From: Bathymodiolus japonicus methanotrophic gill symbiont | GTDB taxonomy: Bacteria; Pseudomonadota; Gammaproteobacteria; Methylococcales; Methylomonadaceae | NCBI RefSeq assembly: GCF_019721995.1 | Contig: NZ_BLYC01000016.1 | Location: 1 to 64,000, forward strand | Length of the DNA stretch: 64,000 bases | Direction: 5' to 3' | In this document: one piece after another, positions 4,341 through 62,996 of the stretch | How positions within the stretch are numbered: position 1 is the stretch's first letter | Layout of the letters: each line of letters begins with the position of its first letter | Notes under the pieces: model-generated | What the model was told of the DNA's origin: nothing | Database searches by the model: none | What the model saw: only the letters and a program-made list of their open reading frames with translations | Made by a program: the position numbers and the translations under genes

Positions 4341-5498
4341 GAAGAAGTACCTAAACAAAGCAGCCTATAACCTACCTGAAGGTAGCACCACTCGAATATT
4401 TCCATTATTTCCATCTTTTTGATTTTAATCACTTATAACAGCAAATAGACACTCTGTAGGCACCGTAAAAAAACAACAAATAATTTCAAATAAAGCTTGC
4501 AATTGCCGAAAAAATTCTTCTAAAAATTTCCGTTTTAATCACCTCATAAACGGATATCACCCATGCTTAAAGACCTACCACTCTCTGAACATATTCACCA
4601 ACACTGCAATGAAAGTATGGAACGTGCCCTGTTAGCAGAGCGTCATCCTTTGTGGGCTCGTTCATGCCCAGAGTTGAAGGATATATCGACTTTATTCGCC
4701 TTGGGTTATTACGCTGTATCAGTGTAGTCGATAGTGGTCGCCATTTCCTCCAAACCAATGAACATATTTATGGCCAGCTGCTTCCCCACTCAACGTATTT
4801 TAAATCACTGAAGTCGCATAGACGAACAAGTATGCTTGAGGCATTTGAACAGCAGAGCTATCATCTTCACGCTGAAACACTGCTATCGCAAGGCATTGAT
4901 TATCTTAAAGCATTCCCAGAACTTGACGAATACACCATAGAAGCAGCGGATGGACATTTTATTGATCATGCCTGCCATACTGAAAAAAACAGCAAGGGGA
5001 AAGTTCAGGCGGCCGGGGGGATTTACGCGTTGAATCTCAGAAGTGGGTTGCTCAGATTTCTTTGTCTGGTGACAAACGGAACTCAGAGACATCAAGAAAT
5101 ACCTGTGTTACGAGATCATATTGAAAAGCAAAACAATGGAAATAACAGCTCTCAGAAACGTCTCTATGTCTACGATAAAGCCGTCACCGGCTTTGTCTGG
5201 TGGGATCGGCAGAAACGACATGCTAATCACATGATTTCAATGCTAAAAGAAAATTCAATTGCGACTCTGGTTGAGTCTATCCCTTTTGACTCCCAGCATG
5301 AGATCAATACAGGAGTTGAAGCATACAGTGTGTACGAAAACAAGGGCATCAAATTTAACGTGGTGGATTACCGTGATCCAGAAACCGGAAAACTTCACCG
5401 GTTTGTGACAACCTTGCCAATGACTATTAACCCTGGAACCATTGCTATGCTGTATTTCAAGCGATGGACGATTGAAAAGACATTCAATAACACTAAAA
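4341..5498 (+). mobile_element. IS-gamma, 3'-truncated copy
   Basis: The left boundary is set where the IS-beta sequence stops (after TGATAATGG) and CATCAGTGTTCCCATTG begins. The same left-end sequence recurs at 17674. The right end is missing because MITE-delta adjoins the transposase gene directly. The 4341-4562 stretch is the noncoding IS leader. Confidence 0.65.
4563..5498 (+). pseudogene. IS-gamma IS4-type transposase, frameshifted and truncated
   Basis: The reading frame starts MLKDLPLSEHIHQHC at 4563 and runs to a TAG at about 4727, while the homologous frame continues from about 4700 in another phase (LRCISVVDSGRHFLQ). A frameshift therefore lies between about 4690 and 4725. The downstream part reads AADGHFIDHACH, NLRSGLLRFL and YDKAVTGFVWWD, and ends at FKRWTIEKTFNNTK, where MITE-delta cuts it off. 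The later copy at 20200-21014 shows the missing C-terminus. The protein has the layout of an IS4-superfamily DDE transposase. Confidence 0.75.
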
Positions 5499-17965: not shown

Positions 17966-19495
17966 CTCGATGTTCAAGTTTTTCCATCCCATTGCCATCA
18001 AACTCTTACCTTCACCCAGTAGAACAATACTTTAATGATGCTGTTGGCCCTAAGCGCCCTAAATCTCTGCCAATCATATTTTTTCCTGATGGCATCAGTT
18101 GAAACACATCCTTTATTAATTCACCTAACTCTTTCAGCTTATCACCAGGATCTGGAAACTCTAGCAATGACGTGATGAACTCAAGCAGTACATCTATTTG
18201 AGACTTGCGCTGTAAGCTTCCTACGGTATACGCAGGTAGTTTGCTTTCAATGCGGGCTATTTGCTCTGGGTGAAGGAGAAGGCAATGGTCAAACAAAAGA
18301 CTCAGAATCAGGCCACGGCTTGATCCCTCTTCATCTAATTGTTTGGCCTCACGCCCCCATCCTTCATAAAGCTTCCAGTCCTCAAAGAAAACCTCAATCA
18401 GCCATCTCAACGTATAGGCTTGAATAATATCTTGTGTGCGCCAAGTCAGGTCTGTCGCCACTAAATAGCGATAGTCGTTTTCACCGTCATATTTTAAGGC
18501 AATGACAAAGCGTTTTTTACTGTGAGAACTCACCTTTAATCGTGCACTGCTGACAGTCACTTTAATCTCTTTGCCGCCACGTACACGTATTATCTGATCA
18601 ATGCCTTTGTTAATCGAATTAAAGTAGCTCTCGACTGACCTTATTCTACCTCTATATTCAATATTTTGGTTTTTACGTAATTGGCTAATCACCTGCGAGC
18701 CTCCAGATTCTTTAGCGGCTTCGTCCATAAAGGCTTTTCACCATACAGCGCATCAGCCAGTACGCCTTTAATTTTAATCAGGCTATGCGCAACTTTAAAC
18801 TCTTTTAATAAGCCTAATGCAATCTCTGTTTTGGTCGGGTAGGCACTGTCACGTTCAGGCTTAATAGGCCGATCTTTTTTTGCTATACCGCTATTTTTCA
18901 ACCGTTTATCTTCTTTATCCCACTGCTTTAAGGCTGGATCCGGCATATAAAAGAAAAAACCGACAGGCACTGTAATGGATGAGGTAACTAGCAGCAATAA
19001 TACTATCGTTTGTCCATTAACATACCCGCCGGAGCCTTTGTGTTTCTGCTTGTAAACCTTATAAATACGTTTTGTAGACTTAGATCGTGCTCGGTCTGAT
19101 TCATCAAAGGCCAACACACCTTCAGTAATGCCATAACGTTTTAAAATTAAGACCACACTCACCCGTAGCAACCAGTCCCAGGGTATACTTGCTTTACGAA
19201 ACACCCAGGATAATGCGGCTACTTTGCAATCTCCAAGGCTTGCTCGCTCAAACTTAGCCCAGCAAACAGAGTTCATTAGCAGTATGCCCGTTAAACAAGT
19301 GCCCAACCAAGCGGCTTGAATCCGTGTCAAAGCGGCTCCGGGTTTTAGCTGATTGAGCGCATCATTTAAATCGTCAATATAGCTCTGGATAAAGGTGGCT
19401 GGGGCATTCATTAACATGGGCTTACACCGATAAAATTACAACAACCTCAGAATACCTGATTTTACCTTCTCAATATCAAAAACTTGAACATCGAG
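17966..19495. mobile_element. IS-delta copy A (1530 bp)
   Basis: Its ends are CTCGATGTTCAAGTTTTT and AAAAACTTGAACATCGAG. The 5-bp duplicates TATCA lie at 17961-17965 and 19496-19500. The two flanks rejoin into the IS-gamma transposase sequence seen at 4708-4730, which proves the boundaries. Confidence 0.92.
18012..19417 (-). pseudogene. IS-delta DDE transposase with a one-base frameshift
   Basis: The N-terminal part (19417-18689) carries VLAFDESDRARSK and KGVLADALYGEK; the C-terminal part (18728-18012) carries RWLIEVFFEDWKLYEGWG. Together they give the D, D and E of an IS4-superfamily DDE transposase. The frames break near 18735, where this copy has four A (coding strand) and the damaged copy B has five. 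Adding one base restores EKAFMDEAAKESGG. The break is a homopolymer slip or a sequencing error; the rest of the frame is clean. Confidence 0.85.
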
Positions 19496-19730
19496 TATCA
19501 GTGTAGTCGATAGTGGTCGCCATTTCCTCCAAACCAATGAACAGATTTATGGCCAGCGGCTTCCCCACTCAACGTATTTTAAATCACTGAAGTCGCATAG
19601 ACGAACAAGTATGCTTGAGGCATTTGAACAGCAGAGCTATCATCTTCACGCTGAAACACTGCTATCGCAAGGCATTGATTATCTTAACCCATCTTCGTCA
19701 CTATTGATGATGTAGTTGTTATAAATCAAT

Positions 19731-20010
19731 CGCTGAAAATCATGGAAACGGAGCTTAGCGAAGTGGTGATTTTTAGCCCCTGATAGGCGACAGGGCAATT
19801 CGCTGATTCGACGTGTGCTAGCAGCACGCGAGAGGAGCAAGAATTGCATTCCGAATAGCCGTCCAGCCAGTGAGGTAGTAATGACGAAGCGGCTTTTGTG
19901 CGTAGTCGTTGCGGACGCAGGGCGTTCAGGGCATCTCCCATCCGCTGCGTAGGTGAACGAATTATGGCGACAGGAGTCCCAGAATTTCGTGAGGTAGCAT
20001 GGCGCGCCTG
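19731..20010 (+). repeat. Type 1 hairpin element (280 bp)
   Basis: The 5' flank is CAAT. The intact MITE at 35126 reads AAATCAAT-TGGTTGAAA at this point, so the insertion added exactly 280 bp and duplicated nothing. Confidence 0.92.
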
Positions 20011-20101
20011 TGGTTGAAATTTTAAAAAGTAGCCAGTTGGCACTACAGATTTTGTGTTTTTGTATAAAACGTTGGATTTTTTAGAGTATTTTTGTCGCAT
20101 G

Positions 20102-20130
20102 CGCTGTCAGCCCGTCCGGGGCTGACAGCG
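20102..20130. repeat. Solo terminal hairpin related to type 2 elements (29 bp)
   Basis: A near-perfect palindrome of arms CGCTGTCAGCCC and GGGCTGACAGCG, with a five-base centre, matches the first hairpin of type 2 elements in reverse, with the closing arm converted to the CGCTGT form. It replaces internal MITE sequence between GTCGCATG and ATCGACAAAA. It may be a minimal remnant of a larger element. Confidence 0.7.
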
Positions 20131-20199
20131 ATCGACAAAAAATCGCTTAAACCGATGAATCAATGGCTTAGAAAGATGAAAGTGACGAAGATTGGTTAA

Positions 20200-21014
20200 A
20201 GCATTCCCGGAACTTGACGAATACACCATAGAAGCAGCGGATGGACATTTTATTGATCATGCCTGCCATACTGAAAAAAACAGCAAGGGGAAAGTTTATG
20301 CGGCCGGGGGGATTTACGCGTTGAATCTCAGAAGTGGGTTGCTCAGATTTCTTTGTCTGGTGACAAACGGAACTCAGAGGCATCAAGAAATACCTGTGTT
20401 ACGAGATCATATTGAAAAGCAAAACAAGGGAAATAACAGCTCTCAGAAACATCTCTATGTCTACGATAAAGCCGTCACCGACTTTGTCTGGTGGGATCGG
20501 CAGAAACGACATGCTAATTACATGATTTCAATGCTAAAAGAAAATTCAATTGCGACTCTGGTTGAGTCTATCCCTTTTGACTCCCGCCATGAGATCAATA
20601 CAGGGGTTGAAGCATACAGTGTGTACGAAAACAAGGGCATCAAATTTAACGTGGTGGATTACCGTGATCCAGAAACCGGAAAACTTCACCGGTTTGTGAC
20701 AACCTTGCCAATGACTATTAACCCTGGAACCATTGCCATGCTGTATTTCAAGCGATGGACGATTGAAAAGACATTCAATAACACTAAAAGTAATTTCAAG
20801 GAAACTAAAGCTTGGTCTTCCAATACCCGCTCACTTGAAAATCAAATGCGCCTGACTGCAATGAGCTATAATTTAATGCGCGTGTTTGAAGAGATTTCAA
20901 AAACACAACAGCCAGAATTGATTCATCCATCGGATAAAAAATATAGCGAGGCTCTGGAGATAAGGCAGCAACAGGCTCAAAAACGAGATCGTTTTGTGAA
21001 TCCATTATTTTCCA
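20200..21014 (+). pseudogene. IS-gamma transposase, C-terminal part
   Basis: It begins KAFPELDEYTIEAADGHF right after the TTAA repeat and runs collinearly with 4905-5498. It then continues beyond it (SNFKETKAWSSNTRSLENQ, MSYNLMRVFEEISK), showing the C-terminal helices missing from the first copy. IS-delta copy B truncates it. Its N-terminal part is scattered through 17945-19687. It is not functional. Confidence 0.8.
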
Positions 21015-21384: not shown

Positions 21385-21644
21385 CGCTGTCAGCCCCGGA
21401 CGGGCTGATAGTCTCCAGAAGGCGCAGGGAAATTTGCCAATCCGAAGTGCGCGATAGCGCGCGAGGGAGGCTAAAATTTTATCCCGAATAGCCGTAGAGC
21501 CATTTGTGGTAGCCATGACTGAGCTGCTTTGTGCTCAGTCTGTGGCGGACGCAGGGCGGCTGGAGCATCTCCTATTCGCTGCGTAGGTGAACGAATTACG
21601 GCGACAGGAGTCCCGGAATTTCGTGAGGTAGCATGGCGCGCCTG
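21385..21644 (+). repeat. Type 2 hairpin element (260 bp)
   Basis: It begins CGCTGTCAGCCCCGG and ends GGCGCGCCTG. The 5' flank is CATC. Copy A of IS-delta reads TTCATC-TAATTG here, so the insertion is exact and without duplication. Four further copies of 260 bp occur at 37965, 39697 (inverted), 56875 and 61649. Confidence 0.93.
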
Positions 21645-34890: not shown

Positions 34891-35983
34891 GTGCGCGCGG
34901 TAGATGAAATCTTAAAAACGGAATTTAAGCTAGCTAAAGGTTTAGCCGATACCAGCAAAACCACCATACAAGTTGAAGTTCCGGTGATTAAAGGGCGTGG
35001 TAAACACAAAGCCACCCGCCTGGAAAAGTCGATAAACAAGTACATAAGGTACAGATACTAGATCCTGCAACCGGCACAGGCACGTTTCTAGCTGAAACCA
35101 TTAAGCATATTTACCAAGATTTTAACCCATCTTCGTCACTATTGATGATGTAGTTGTTATAAATCAATTGGTTGAAATTTTAAAAAGTAGCCAGTTGGCA
35201 CTACAGATTTTGTGTTTTTGTATAAAACGTTGGATTTTTTAGAGTATTTTTGTCGCATGTAAATTACACTCAAATAATGATGATTTTTTTGACAAAAGTC
35301 AATGAATTTATCGACAAAAATAATATAAATGACACTACAAAACTTTCAAAAAAAACACCATTGATTTTAAAGAGAATTTTTCGACAAAAAATCGCTTAAA
35401 CCGATGAATCAATGGCTTAGAAAGATGAAAGTGACGAAGATGGGTTAAAGGCCAGCAGGGCATCTGGAGCGGCTATGTAGAAGAGCATTTAACTCCACGG
35501 CTGAATGGCTTTGAGCTGCTGATGGCATCCTATGCGATGGCGCATTTAAAGCTGGACTTATTATTAAAAGAAACCGGATACACTGCCAAAAAACAGCAGA
35601 GGCTCAATGTGTTTTTAACCAATAGCCTGGAAAAAGAGCATCCTGATACGGGCACCTTATTTGCCACCTGGTTATCTAATGAAGCCAGCGAGGCTAATCG
35701 TATCAAGCGTGATGCACCGGTCATGGTGGTGATGGGTAATCCACCCTATGCCGTCAGTAGTAGCAATAAAGGTGACTGGATACAAGAATTACTTAAAGAT
35801 TATAAAAAGGACTTAAACGAGCGTAATATTCAGCCGCTGTCGGATGATTACATTAAATTTATCCGTTACGGTCAGCACTATATAGACAAAAATGGTGAAG
35901 GCATACTGGCCTATATTTCTAATAATAGCTTTATCGATGGCATTATTCATCGGCAAATGCGCAAGTGTCTGATGGCGGGCTAA
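34890..35983 (+). pseudogene. Type ISP restriction-modification enzyme, internal fragment
   Basis: The frame VDEILKTEFKLAKGLADTSK is followed by a one-base shift in an A run near 35025. KVQILDPATGTGTFLAETIK (adenine methylase motif I) then stops at the TTAA MITE. After the MITE it resumes GQQGIWSGYVEEHLTPRLNG and reaches MVVMGNPPYAVSS (motif IV), and it breaks off in a REP at about 35970. The order of segments matches single-chain Type ISP (LlaGI-like) enzymes. Both the helicase and the target-recognition ends are missing. Confidence 0.8.
35126..35444. mobile_element. TTAA-targeted MITE (319 bp), complete
   Basis: Its ends are CCCATCTTCGTCACT and AAGTGACGAAGATGGG, with TTAA duplicates at 35122-35125 and 35445-35448. 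The interior repeats TTTTTGTCG and CGACAAAAA motifs. It interrupts the methylase gene; removal with one TTAA restores the frame (YQDF-KGQQG). Confidence 0.9.
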
Positions 35984-37900: not shown

Positions 37901-38337
37901 AATACACAATGCTGGTGTATCGAGGTTTATTTTAGGTGGTTTTGCCATGTTTATAGCAAACCCCCGCTGTCAGCCCCGGACGGGCTGATAGTCTCCAGAA
38001 GGCGCAGGGAAATTTGCCAATCCGAAGTGCGCGATAGCGCGCGAGGGAGGCTAAAATTTTATCCCGAATAGCCGTAGAGCCATTTGTGGTAGCCATGACT
38101 GAGCTGCTTTGTGCTCAGTCTGTGGCGGACGCAGGGCGGCTGGAGCATCTCCTATTCGCTGCGTAGGTGAACGAATTACGGCGACAGGAGTCCCGGAATT
38201 TCGTGAGGTAGCATGGCGCGCCTGTACTTAATTCCCCTTAGGCAATAGCATTTGAAACGAATGAAAAGACTATCTTTCTCATATAGTTGCAGCATGGTTT
38301 AAATTTTACCATAAATAATTATTGGGAAACTTCAGTT
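37870..38337. mobile_element. MITE-beta copy 5, interrupted by a type 2 element
   Basis: Its ends are AACTGGAGTTTCCCAATT and ATTGGGAAACTTCAGTT, with TAAG duplicates (37866-37869 and 38338-38341). The length without the 260-bp insert is 208 bp. It truncates the Crp/Fnr gene. Confidence 0.92.
37965..38224 (+). repeat. Type 2 hairpin element (260 bp)
   Basis: The 5' flank is CCCC. Other MITE-beta copies read AAACCCC-TACTTAATT here, so the insertion is exact with no duplication. Confidence 0.93.
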
Positions 38338-39696: not shown

Positions 39697-39956
39697 CAGG
39701 CGCGCCATGCTACCTCACGAAATTCCGGGACTCCTGTCGCCGTAATTCGTTCACCTACGCAGCGAATAGGAGATGCTCCAGCCGCCCTGCGTCCGCCACA
39801 GACTGAGCACAAAGCAGCTCAGTCATGGCTACCACAAATGGCTCTACGGCTATTCGGGATAAAATTTTAGCCTCCCTCGCGCGCTATCGCGCACTTCGGA
39901 TTGGCAAATTTCCCTGCGCCTTCTGGAGACTATCAGCCCGTCCGGGGCTGACAGCG
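39697..39956 (-). repeat. Type 2 hairpin element (260 bp), the only inverted copy
   Basis: It is the exact reverse complement of the other type 2 copies. Read in the element's own direction, the 5' flank is CATC. It sits directly against a terminator hairpin. Confidence 0.92.
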
Positions 39957-56874: not shown

Positions 56875-57134
56875 CGCTGTCAGCCCCGGACGGGCTGATA
56901 GTCTCCAGAAGGCGCAGGGAAATTTGCCAATCCGAAGTGCGCGATAGCGCGCGAGGGAGGCTAAAATTTTATCCCGAATAGCCGTAGAGCCATTTGTGGT
57001 AGCCATGACTGAGCTGCTTTGTGCTCAGTCTGTGGCGGACGCAGGGCGGCTGGAGCATCTCCTATTCGCTGCGTAGGTGAACGAATTACGGCGACAGGAG
57101 TCCCGGAATTTCGTGAGGTAGCATGGCGCGCCTG
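56875..57134 (+). repeat. Type 2 hairpin element (260 bp)
   Basis: It begins CGCTGTCAGCCCCGG and ends GGCGCGCCTG. The 5' flank is CAAC. It lies near the 3' end of the DUF2066 gene, in the same orientation as that gene. Confidence 0.92.
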
Positions 57135-61403: not shown

Positions 61404-62996
61404 ATGTTCATTTTACGCGATATTTTACTCCCGCTTCAAGATCATTTTTCCAAAACCACTTTAGGCCGCGAACGAGCCTCTCTGTTCGTTTACACGATCC
61501 TGTCCATTATCGTTCCTTTTACGTCATCAAGGACCTCTAATCTTTGGCGTTGCCTTGATACGTTGTTTGGGTTTGAGATCAAGAATAAGCGCTTTTACAC
61601 TTTCATGGCTTCTTCAACTTTGCCGTGGGCTGGGCTGTGGAAAACTATCGCTGTCAGCCCCGGACGGGCTGATAGTCTCCAGAAGGCGCAGGGAAATTTG
61701 CCAATCCGAAGTGCGCGATAGCGCGCGAGGGAGGCTAAAATTTTATCCCGAATAGCCGTAGAGCCATTTGTGGTAGCCATGACTGAGCTGCTTTGTGCTC
61801 AGTCTGTGGCGGACGCAGGGCGGCTGGAGCATCTCCTATTCGCTGCGTAGGTGAACGAATTACGGCGACAGGAGTCCCGGAATTTCGTGAGGTAGCATGG
61901 CGCGCCTGCTGGGAGCTGATTCCGTCTCCTGAAACAGATGGGCGCATATTGGTTGCACTGGATGACTCCATTATCACTAAAGTAGGCAAAAATATCTTCG
62001 GCTGTGAAGCCATTTTTGACCATGCGGCCGAATCAAAGCAAATATCCATGGGCACAAAATATTGTATCGGTAGGGTTGCTGAAACAGGTCAAAGGTCGCT
62101 GGGCGTGCTTATTTTTAGATTTCCGATTTTATCTGCCCTTAAAAACAATTCAGGCAAAAAAAGAAACCGCCACGATAAGAGGTGATGTCGTTCCTTTCCA
62201 GACCAAGATGGCTCAGGCGGCTCAAATGCTGATTGCAATTGCAGAACATTTTTCCACCGCTCCGATATTGACAGTCACTGATAGCTGGTTTGGCAACAAT
62301 GGCCTATGGAAGCCTGTTTACAAAGCTATCGGAAGCCGGTTTAATATTCTCTCTAGGTTAAGGTGCAATAATGTACTGTACGATCGTCCAGAAAAAAGAA
62401 AACCCAAGCAGAGGGGGTGGAATAAAAAGTACGGGCAGCGTCTGGGGGCAGCCACAGACATGGCAAAAACAGTACAACAAAAGGCCCGATCGTATACCGT
62501 GAATCTCTATGGAAAACAGCGTGAAGTCAGGGCTTATAGTCGCGTTGTCATGCTGAAAACATTGAAACGACCCGTTCAGGTTGTCTGGGTGTTTCGTCGC
62601 ACACAGTGGATTGCTTTGTTTACGACCGATCTAAGTTTATCCGTCACACAGATTATTGAGTATTATGGTGCGCGATGGAAAATCGAATCTGGGTTCAAAG
62701 CGCTCAAGCAAGACATAGGGAGTCAGAAAAGTCAGTGTCGAAATGCGCAGGCAGTGACCAACCATTTGAACTTCTGTATGATGGCAACAGCGCTGACGTG
62801 GATTTACGCGGATCGTTTAAAAACCGATCCGGAACGTCGGCACAAAGTGAAGGGGCGAGCCAGTTTCGCCTTTTCAGATATCCGCCGCATCATTGCCGAA
62901 GCGGCTTTGGATCCGGATTTTGAAAGGGTTTGCCCCAAATACAGCAACTCCCCTGTAAATTCGGTGGTAGCCGTTTTATTGCGAATGGTTGCTTGA
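61404..62996 (+). pseudogene. IS-beta DDE transposase, interrupted
   Basis: The frame starts MFILRDILLPLQDHFSKTTL and reaches LPWAGLWKTI. Removing the type 2 element gives in-frame WELIPSPETDGRILVALDDS, the first catalytic region. A 5-bp deletion near 62030 (compared with the copy around 4250) then shifts the frame. It continues QSKYPWAQNIVSVGLLKQ, VTDSWFGNN and YGARWKIESGFKALKQD, the last holding the catalytic glutamate, to LLRMVA at 62996. It is inactive through both lesions. Confidence 0.85.
61649..61908 (+). repeat. Type 2 hairpin element (260 bp)
   Basis: The 5' flank is CTAT. Exact removal joins AAAACTAT to CTGGGAG and restores the transposase frame. Confidence 0.93.

Follow-up and report, generated by a model that had tools for sequence, protein, structure and literature searches.

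Positions 20102 to 20130 of the window (the whole 64,000-nt stretch of DNA analyzed here) hold a 29-bp palindrome that matches the terminal hairpin of type-2 MITEs and stands alone, as a solo, inside a MITE of a different family. The locus raises the question of whether such a solo is a small element in its own right or the remnant of a larger event. In this study, the solo is read as a deletion scar: two MITEs with their left ends facing outward probably formed a long palindrome that was lost again when replication slipped from one direct repeat to another within the hairpin arms.

The solo palindrome and its surroundings

The features of the window that bear on this question are as follows.

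19688-20195, plus strand: interrupted host MITE copy, 120 bp missing at the solo (direct reading, copies elsewhere)
19731-20010, plus strand: full-length type-1 MITE, 280 bp, nested in the host MITE
20098-20101, plus strand: CATG, target tetranucleotide at the joint of one left end, with C at -4
20102-20130, no strand assigned: perfect palindrome, solo, a fusion of two type-2 left ends (pattern search, folding)
20131-20134, minus strand: ATCG (minus-strand reading CGAT), target tetranucleotide at the joint of the other left end, again with C at -4
21385-21644, plus strand: full-length type-2 MITE, 260 bp, imperfect left-end hairpin ..GATAGTC
35126-35444, plus strand: intact host MITE copy, in which 35260-35379 are the 120 bp absent at the solo
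37965-38224, plus strand: full-length type-2 MITE
39697-39956, minus strand: full-length type-2 MITE
56875-57134, plus strand: full-length type-2 MITE
61649-61908, plus strand: full-length type-2 MITE

The palindrome reads CGCTGTCAGCCC-GTCCG-GGGCTGACAGCG, with 12 of 12 pairs matched around a 5-nt loop that is oriented as in a minus-strand type-2 left end. The sequence-only reading had placed a 29-bp hairpin at exactly this position, which is confirmed, and had judged it almost perfect and more symmetrical than the hairpin of full-length type-2 elements. Its arms are in fact perfect, and DNA folding gave -15.5 kcal/mol for the solo hairpin vs. -8.6 for the full-length type-2 left-end hairpin.

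The host MITE is about 320 bp long, belongs to a different family from type 2, has the inverted ends CCCATCTTCGTCACT and AGTGACGAAGATTGG, and is surrounded by a duplicated TTAA (19684-19687 and 20196-20199). The solo had been said to replace about 130 bp of a MITE; comparison with the intact copy at 35126-35444 bears out the replacement and corrects the size to 120 bp. The flanking ATCG (..GAATTTATCGAC..) also occurs as an allele without insertion in 3 of 52 sampled host-MITE copies. An additional 72-bp direct-repeat deletion was considered as the source of this flank and rejected, since these three uninterrupted copies make a further deletion unnecessary. The nested type-1 MITE is joined at CAAT|TGGT, with its target neither duplicated nor lost. 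The host MITE itself interrupts a transposase gene (window 19495-20495) with an apparent TTAA duplication, and an uninterrupted copy of this gene lies at about 4716-5204 of the window. Twelve MITEs of the window are in plus orientation and one is in minus orientation.

Distribution of solo palindromes

The symbiont's own genome is a repeat-rich draft of 4.97 Mb in 109 contigs, about half of which was read directly; elements were called by consensus patterns, and few solos could be checked for target loss. A search of this genome for type-2-like hairpins with three or fewer mismatches returned 359 hits: 3 perfect, 1 with two mismatches, and 355 ordinary. The ordinary left-end hairpins (about 355) end in ..GATAGTC and the three perfect ones in ..GACAGCG. 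With 3 perfect among 359 and none with a reversed-pattern control, the perfect solo hairpin is far beyond chance. The MITE body is absent at all three perfect type-2 hairpins and at the near-perfect L004.

A second, unrelated hairpin family gave the same picture of solos. The perfect form, CGCTGAAAATC..GATTTTCAGCG, had 11 hits at 10 distinct sites (L082 and L085 have their flanks in common), and full-length elements of this family, which end in ..GATTTTTAGTC, had 805 hits (427 forward and 378 reverse). Two more solos, with only the foot repaired (the last two bases, ..TAGCG), were present in a 1.26-Mb sample. Three others came from relatives, which are methanotrophic symbionts of deep-sea mussels: L046 and L071 in one genome and L049 in another. 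By name, two of these contigs belong to a Bathymodiolus platifrons methanotrophic gill symbiont and a Bathymodiolus puteoserpentis methanotrophic endosymbiont. The resulting set of 19 solos comprises the 3 perfect type-2 palindromes, the slightly decayed L004, 10 of the second family, 2 foot-repaired, and 3 from relatives. Perfect palindromes are found as solos only. The genome-wide count proposed by the sequence-only reading shows that solos recur and that the one in the window is not a single copy. A record named Methylophaga sp. MAG (L248:1655-1683), probably a mis-binned contig, holds the solo of L049 too, and its flanks match.

Target motif on both flanks

In every one of the 19 solos, position -4 is C whichever strand is read (CNNN|palindrome|NNNG), which gives 19/19 on each side. 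Full-length elements have a short, fixed motif in the target just 5' of their left end, with C at -4 in 302 of 306; at their right flanks, G at +4 was found in only 37 of 219 (right end 1/2) and 24 of 131 (right end 3). The target C of full-length elements is thus limited to the left end. The flank rule expected earlier, CNNY, holds for the solos as to C at -4 and is better written CNN(not G), as G occurs at -1 in only 8 of 306 full-length left ends. Since C stands at -4 on both strands, each solo has two independent left-end/target joints, and a solo therefore records two such joints and not one small insertion.

Three degenerate left-end remnants (C3:263647, C1:181406, and L047) do not have the two-sided C. 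C3:263647 was considered as a clean solo and set aside; it is decayed, and its right side is fused to the right end of another MITE. The 12-mer CAGGCGCGCCTG at C2:104659, a candidate right-end scar, was likewise dropped, because its context looks coding and the match is probably chance.

Loss of target DNA

Uninterrupted copies elsewhere allowed the target to be resolved for 298 of 634 full elements and for 6 palindromes. Full-length insertion was blunt, without duplication or loss, in 286 of the 298: 167 were exact and 119 had a constant 2-nt offset, which arises because right end 3 reaches two bases beyond the boundary first drawn. The DNA between the two joints was missing in 6 of 6 resolvable palindromes.

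Solo at 20102-20130: 120 bp missing
L079: 579 bp missing
L086: 43 bp missing
C3:194125: 129 bp missing
C3:109943 (183-bp palindrome): 133 bp missing
C8:100568 (183-bp palindrome): 180 bp missing

Longer palindromes and spacing of MITE pairs

Four palindromes of 183 bp (C3:109943, C5:143101, C6:115593, and C8:100568) are built as a left end, an internal hairpin, and an inverted left end, and the C at -4 is present on each strand in all four. In C3:109943 and C5:143101, the left-end variants differ between the two ends of the palindrome. A single right-end/right-end palindrome of 77 bp, in which two type-3 right ends are combined (C6:2774-2850), was found in the 2.44-Mb sample, where left-left products numbered 11 vs. 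1 right-right product. A search for mixed-family left-end chimeras found none.

Close same-family inverted pairs were depleted in the 2.44-Mb sample. Inverted pairs were closer than 300 bp in 1 of 27 cases vs. 21 of 87 for direct pairs (p=0.023), and closer than 600 bp in 5 of 43 vs. 38 of 137 (p=0.039); the pairs are few, and these p-values are indicative only, as the distance thresholds were set after inspection of the data. Beyond 2 kb, inverted and direct pairs did not differ (p=0.90).

Origin of the solos

In the proposed collapse, the host MITE would have received two type-2 MITEs, one on each strand, with left ends outward; their joints, plus-strand CATG and minus-strand CGAT, would have lain 120 bp from each other. 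The pair would form a long interrupted palindrome with arms of about 260 bp, which could fold on the lagging-strand template. Inverted copies of the hairpin share short direct repeats (GGGCTGA in type 2, GATTTT in the second family), and replication may slip from one GGGCTGA to another, since the inner arm of the first left-end hairpin and the outer arm of the second each contain it. Such a slip would remove the bodies of the two MITEs together with the intervening 120 bp and would leave a single loop flanked by the outer arms of the two left ends. As the outer arms of both left ends would be kept, the palindrome would be perfect, end at the element boundaries, and show the target C on both strands. 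For the 183-bp palindromes, an identical event would have taken place one hairpin further in.

The motifs show the insertion step, in which left ends were joined to the target at two sites; we infer that full elements inserted first and that the deletion occurred by slippage. The restriction of perfection to solos, the two-sided target rule, the target loss, the 183-bp palindromes with two variants, the depletion of inverted pairs, and the one right-end/right-end palindrome together make collapse the probable origin. Its main weakness is that left-left products (11) far exceed right-right ones (1), though intact close pairs are less skewed; part of this excess may come from the right ends of types 1 and 2, which lack a stable hairpin directly at the terminus. 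The junction of L080 also speaks against collapse, with a direct repeat of only 2 nt, as do the three degenerate left-end remnants that lack the two-sided C, and none of the solo sites showed an uncollapsed precursor.

Because of the left-left excess, a second explanation deserves some weight, although we consider it rather unlikely. In one failed transposition, the transposase would join left ends to CNNN targets on both strands, at a distance of a few tens up to hundreds of bases; the right ends would stay unjoined, the DNA between would be lost, and the left-end tails would anneal through their palindromic arms and be filled in. The two-sided C rule, the target loss, and the occurrence of two different left ends all fit such double joining, the predominance of left-left over right-right products suits a left-end-specific reaction, and the 2-nt junction of L080 resembles end joining. 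However, it requires two coordinated one-ended events on opposite strands, and it explains neither the right-end/right-end palindrome nor the depletion of same-family inverted pairs. If it were true, solos would be side products of left-end-only transposition that make palindromic deletions. The suggestion of an abortive insertion in the sequence-only reading survives in this two-left-ends form only.

Alternatively, excision or random deletion might have left just one left end, to which snap-back self-copying then gave its symmetry. The palindrome stops exactly at the first base of the element, and arm mismatches are evened out in L071 and possibly in L083 and L087, as this origin would have it. 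Nevertheless, this origin does not predict a separate target C at the second flank, which 19 of 19 solos have, and the two 183-bp palindromes with different left-end variants contradict it, so that snap-back is very improbable. The related idea of an excision scar is disfavored by the two-strand C rule, the target loss at 6 of 6 sites, and the two-variant 183-bp relatives.

Even less probable is a minimal mobile element, a 29-bp (or 49-bp) hairpin that transposes by itself in a REP-like manner. The recurrence of solos at many unrelated sites beside the correct target motif would suit it. Yet the target was lost at 6 of 6 resolvable sites (43-579 bp) vs. lossless insertion of full elements, the motif on the second strand is left unexplained, different loops and 183-bp versions have arisen more than once, and the palindrome has no right-end cleavage site. 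The solo does not show that the hairpin alone suffices for mobilization. The least credible explanation, an assembly or amplification artefact, might be suspected in a draft genome of 109 contigs with many repeats, but the L049 solo recurs with matching flanks in the separately deposited record L248, other genomes hold further solos, and neither a two-sided motif nor repeatable gap sizes would be expected.

Transposases and palindrome cutting

Matches to Y1 (HUH) transposases numbered 22, mostly fragments. The single intact one, a RAYT-like gene at C5:60392-61057 (L076/L089), was rejected as the mobilizer, as MITE ends are absent around it and its two closest relatives (G017 and G049) lie in genomes without type-2 hairpins. 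The other Y1 genes were rejected as mostly fragments, and a search of the sample for a longer autonomous element with MITE ends found none.

SbcD helps to cut long palindromes. A search of the own draft genome for SbcD (TIGR00619) gave no match, and 14 of 17 congeneric genomes had matches. An SbcC-like gene is intact at C14 (C14:33000-47000, L259), with MITEs immediately upstream; no SbcD remnant was found directly upstream of it. The apparent absence of SbcD alongside the richness in elements is a correlation in one draft genome, and it poses a testable question: does the loss of palindrome cutting let such elements accumulate?

A solo may be a readable fossil of palindrome collapse that keeps both insertion motifs; where the target is repetitive, the size of the deletion can be read from it exactly. 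Small dispersed palindromes can thus derive from collapsed inverted pairs rather than from mobile hairpins, and this origin bears on how REP-like singlets arise.

Comparison with known systems

Full-length type-1, type-2, and type-3 elements behave like IS200/IS605-type non-autonomous elements: target duplication is absent, a short target motif lies directly 5' of the left-end hairpin, and there is a lagging-strand bias. In the sampled genome, MITE orientation followed GC skew in 483 of 634 (Fisher p=6e-40), as expected from insertion into the lagging-strand template. Their terminal hairpins are clear at the left end of type 2 and at right end 3, weak at the left end of types 1 and 3, and weaker at right end 1/2. 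Unlike these elements, a solo has no right end, lost its target at 6 of 6 sites, and is a by-product rather than an element.

Solos are not REPs either. The palindrome foot is CGCTG/CAGCG with flanks varying as CNNN, rather than a REP tag (GTAG or CGTC), and there are at most about 20 solos vs. about 1160 left-end hits of full elements, rather than the high independent copy number of REPs. The closest precedent found is a remark, mentioned as unpublished, that REP singlets arise by deletion between the two inverted REPs of a REPIN, which gives one long palindrome (Bertels and Rainey 2011, PMC3116915). The solos resemble these REP singlets in their short inverted units and in the deletion between inverted copies that is said to yield one long palindrome (PMC3116915). 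Solos differ in that two separate full MITEs and two target sites are involved, the host DNA between them is lost, both target motifs are still readable, and the foot has no GTAG tag.

In Escherichia coli, long interrupted palindromes form hairpins on the lagging strand (PMC3315005). The instability of long palindromes in that species, linked to SbcCD and lagging-strand hairpins, resembles the present case: unstable inverted repeats with arms or span of about 250 bp form folds in the template of the lagging strand. Unlike the E. coli case, the solos are natural products of a symbiont whose genome has no SbcD match, and the small hairpins in which their end points lie are part of the repeats.
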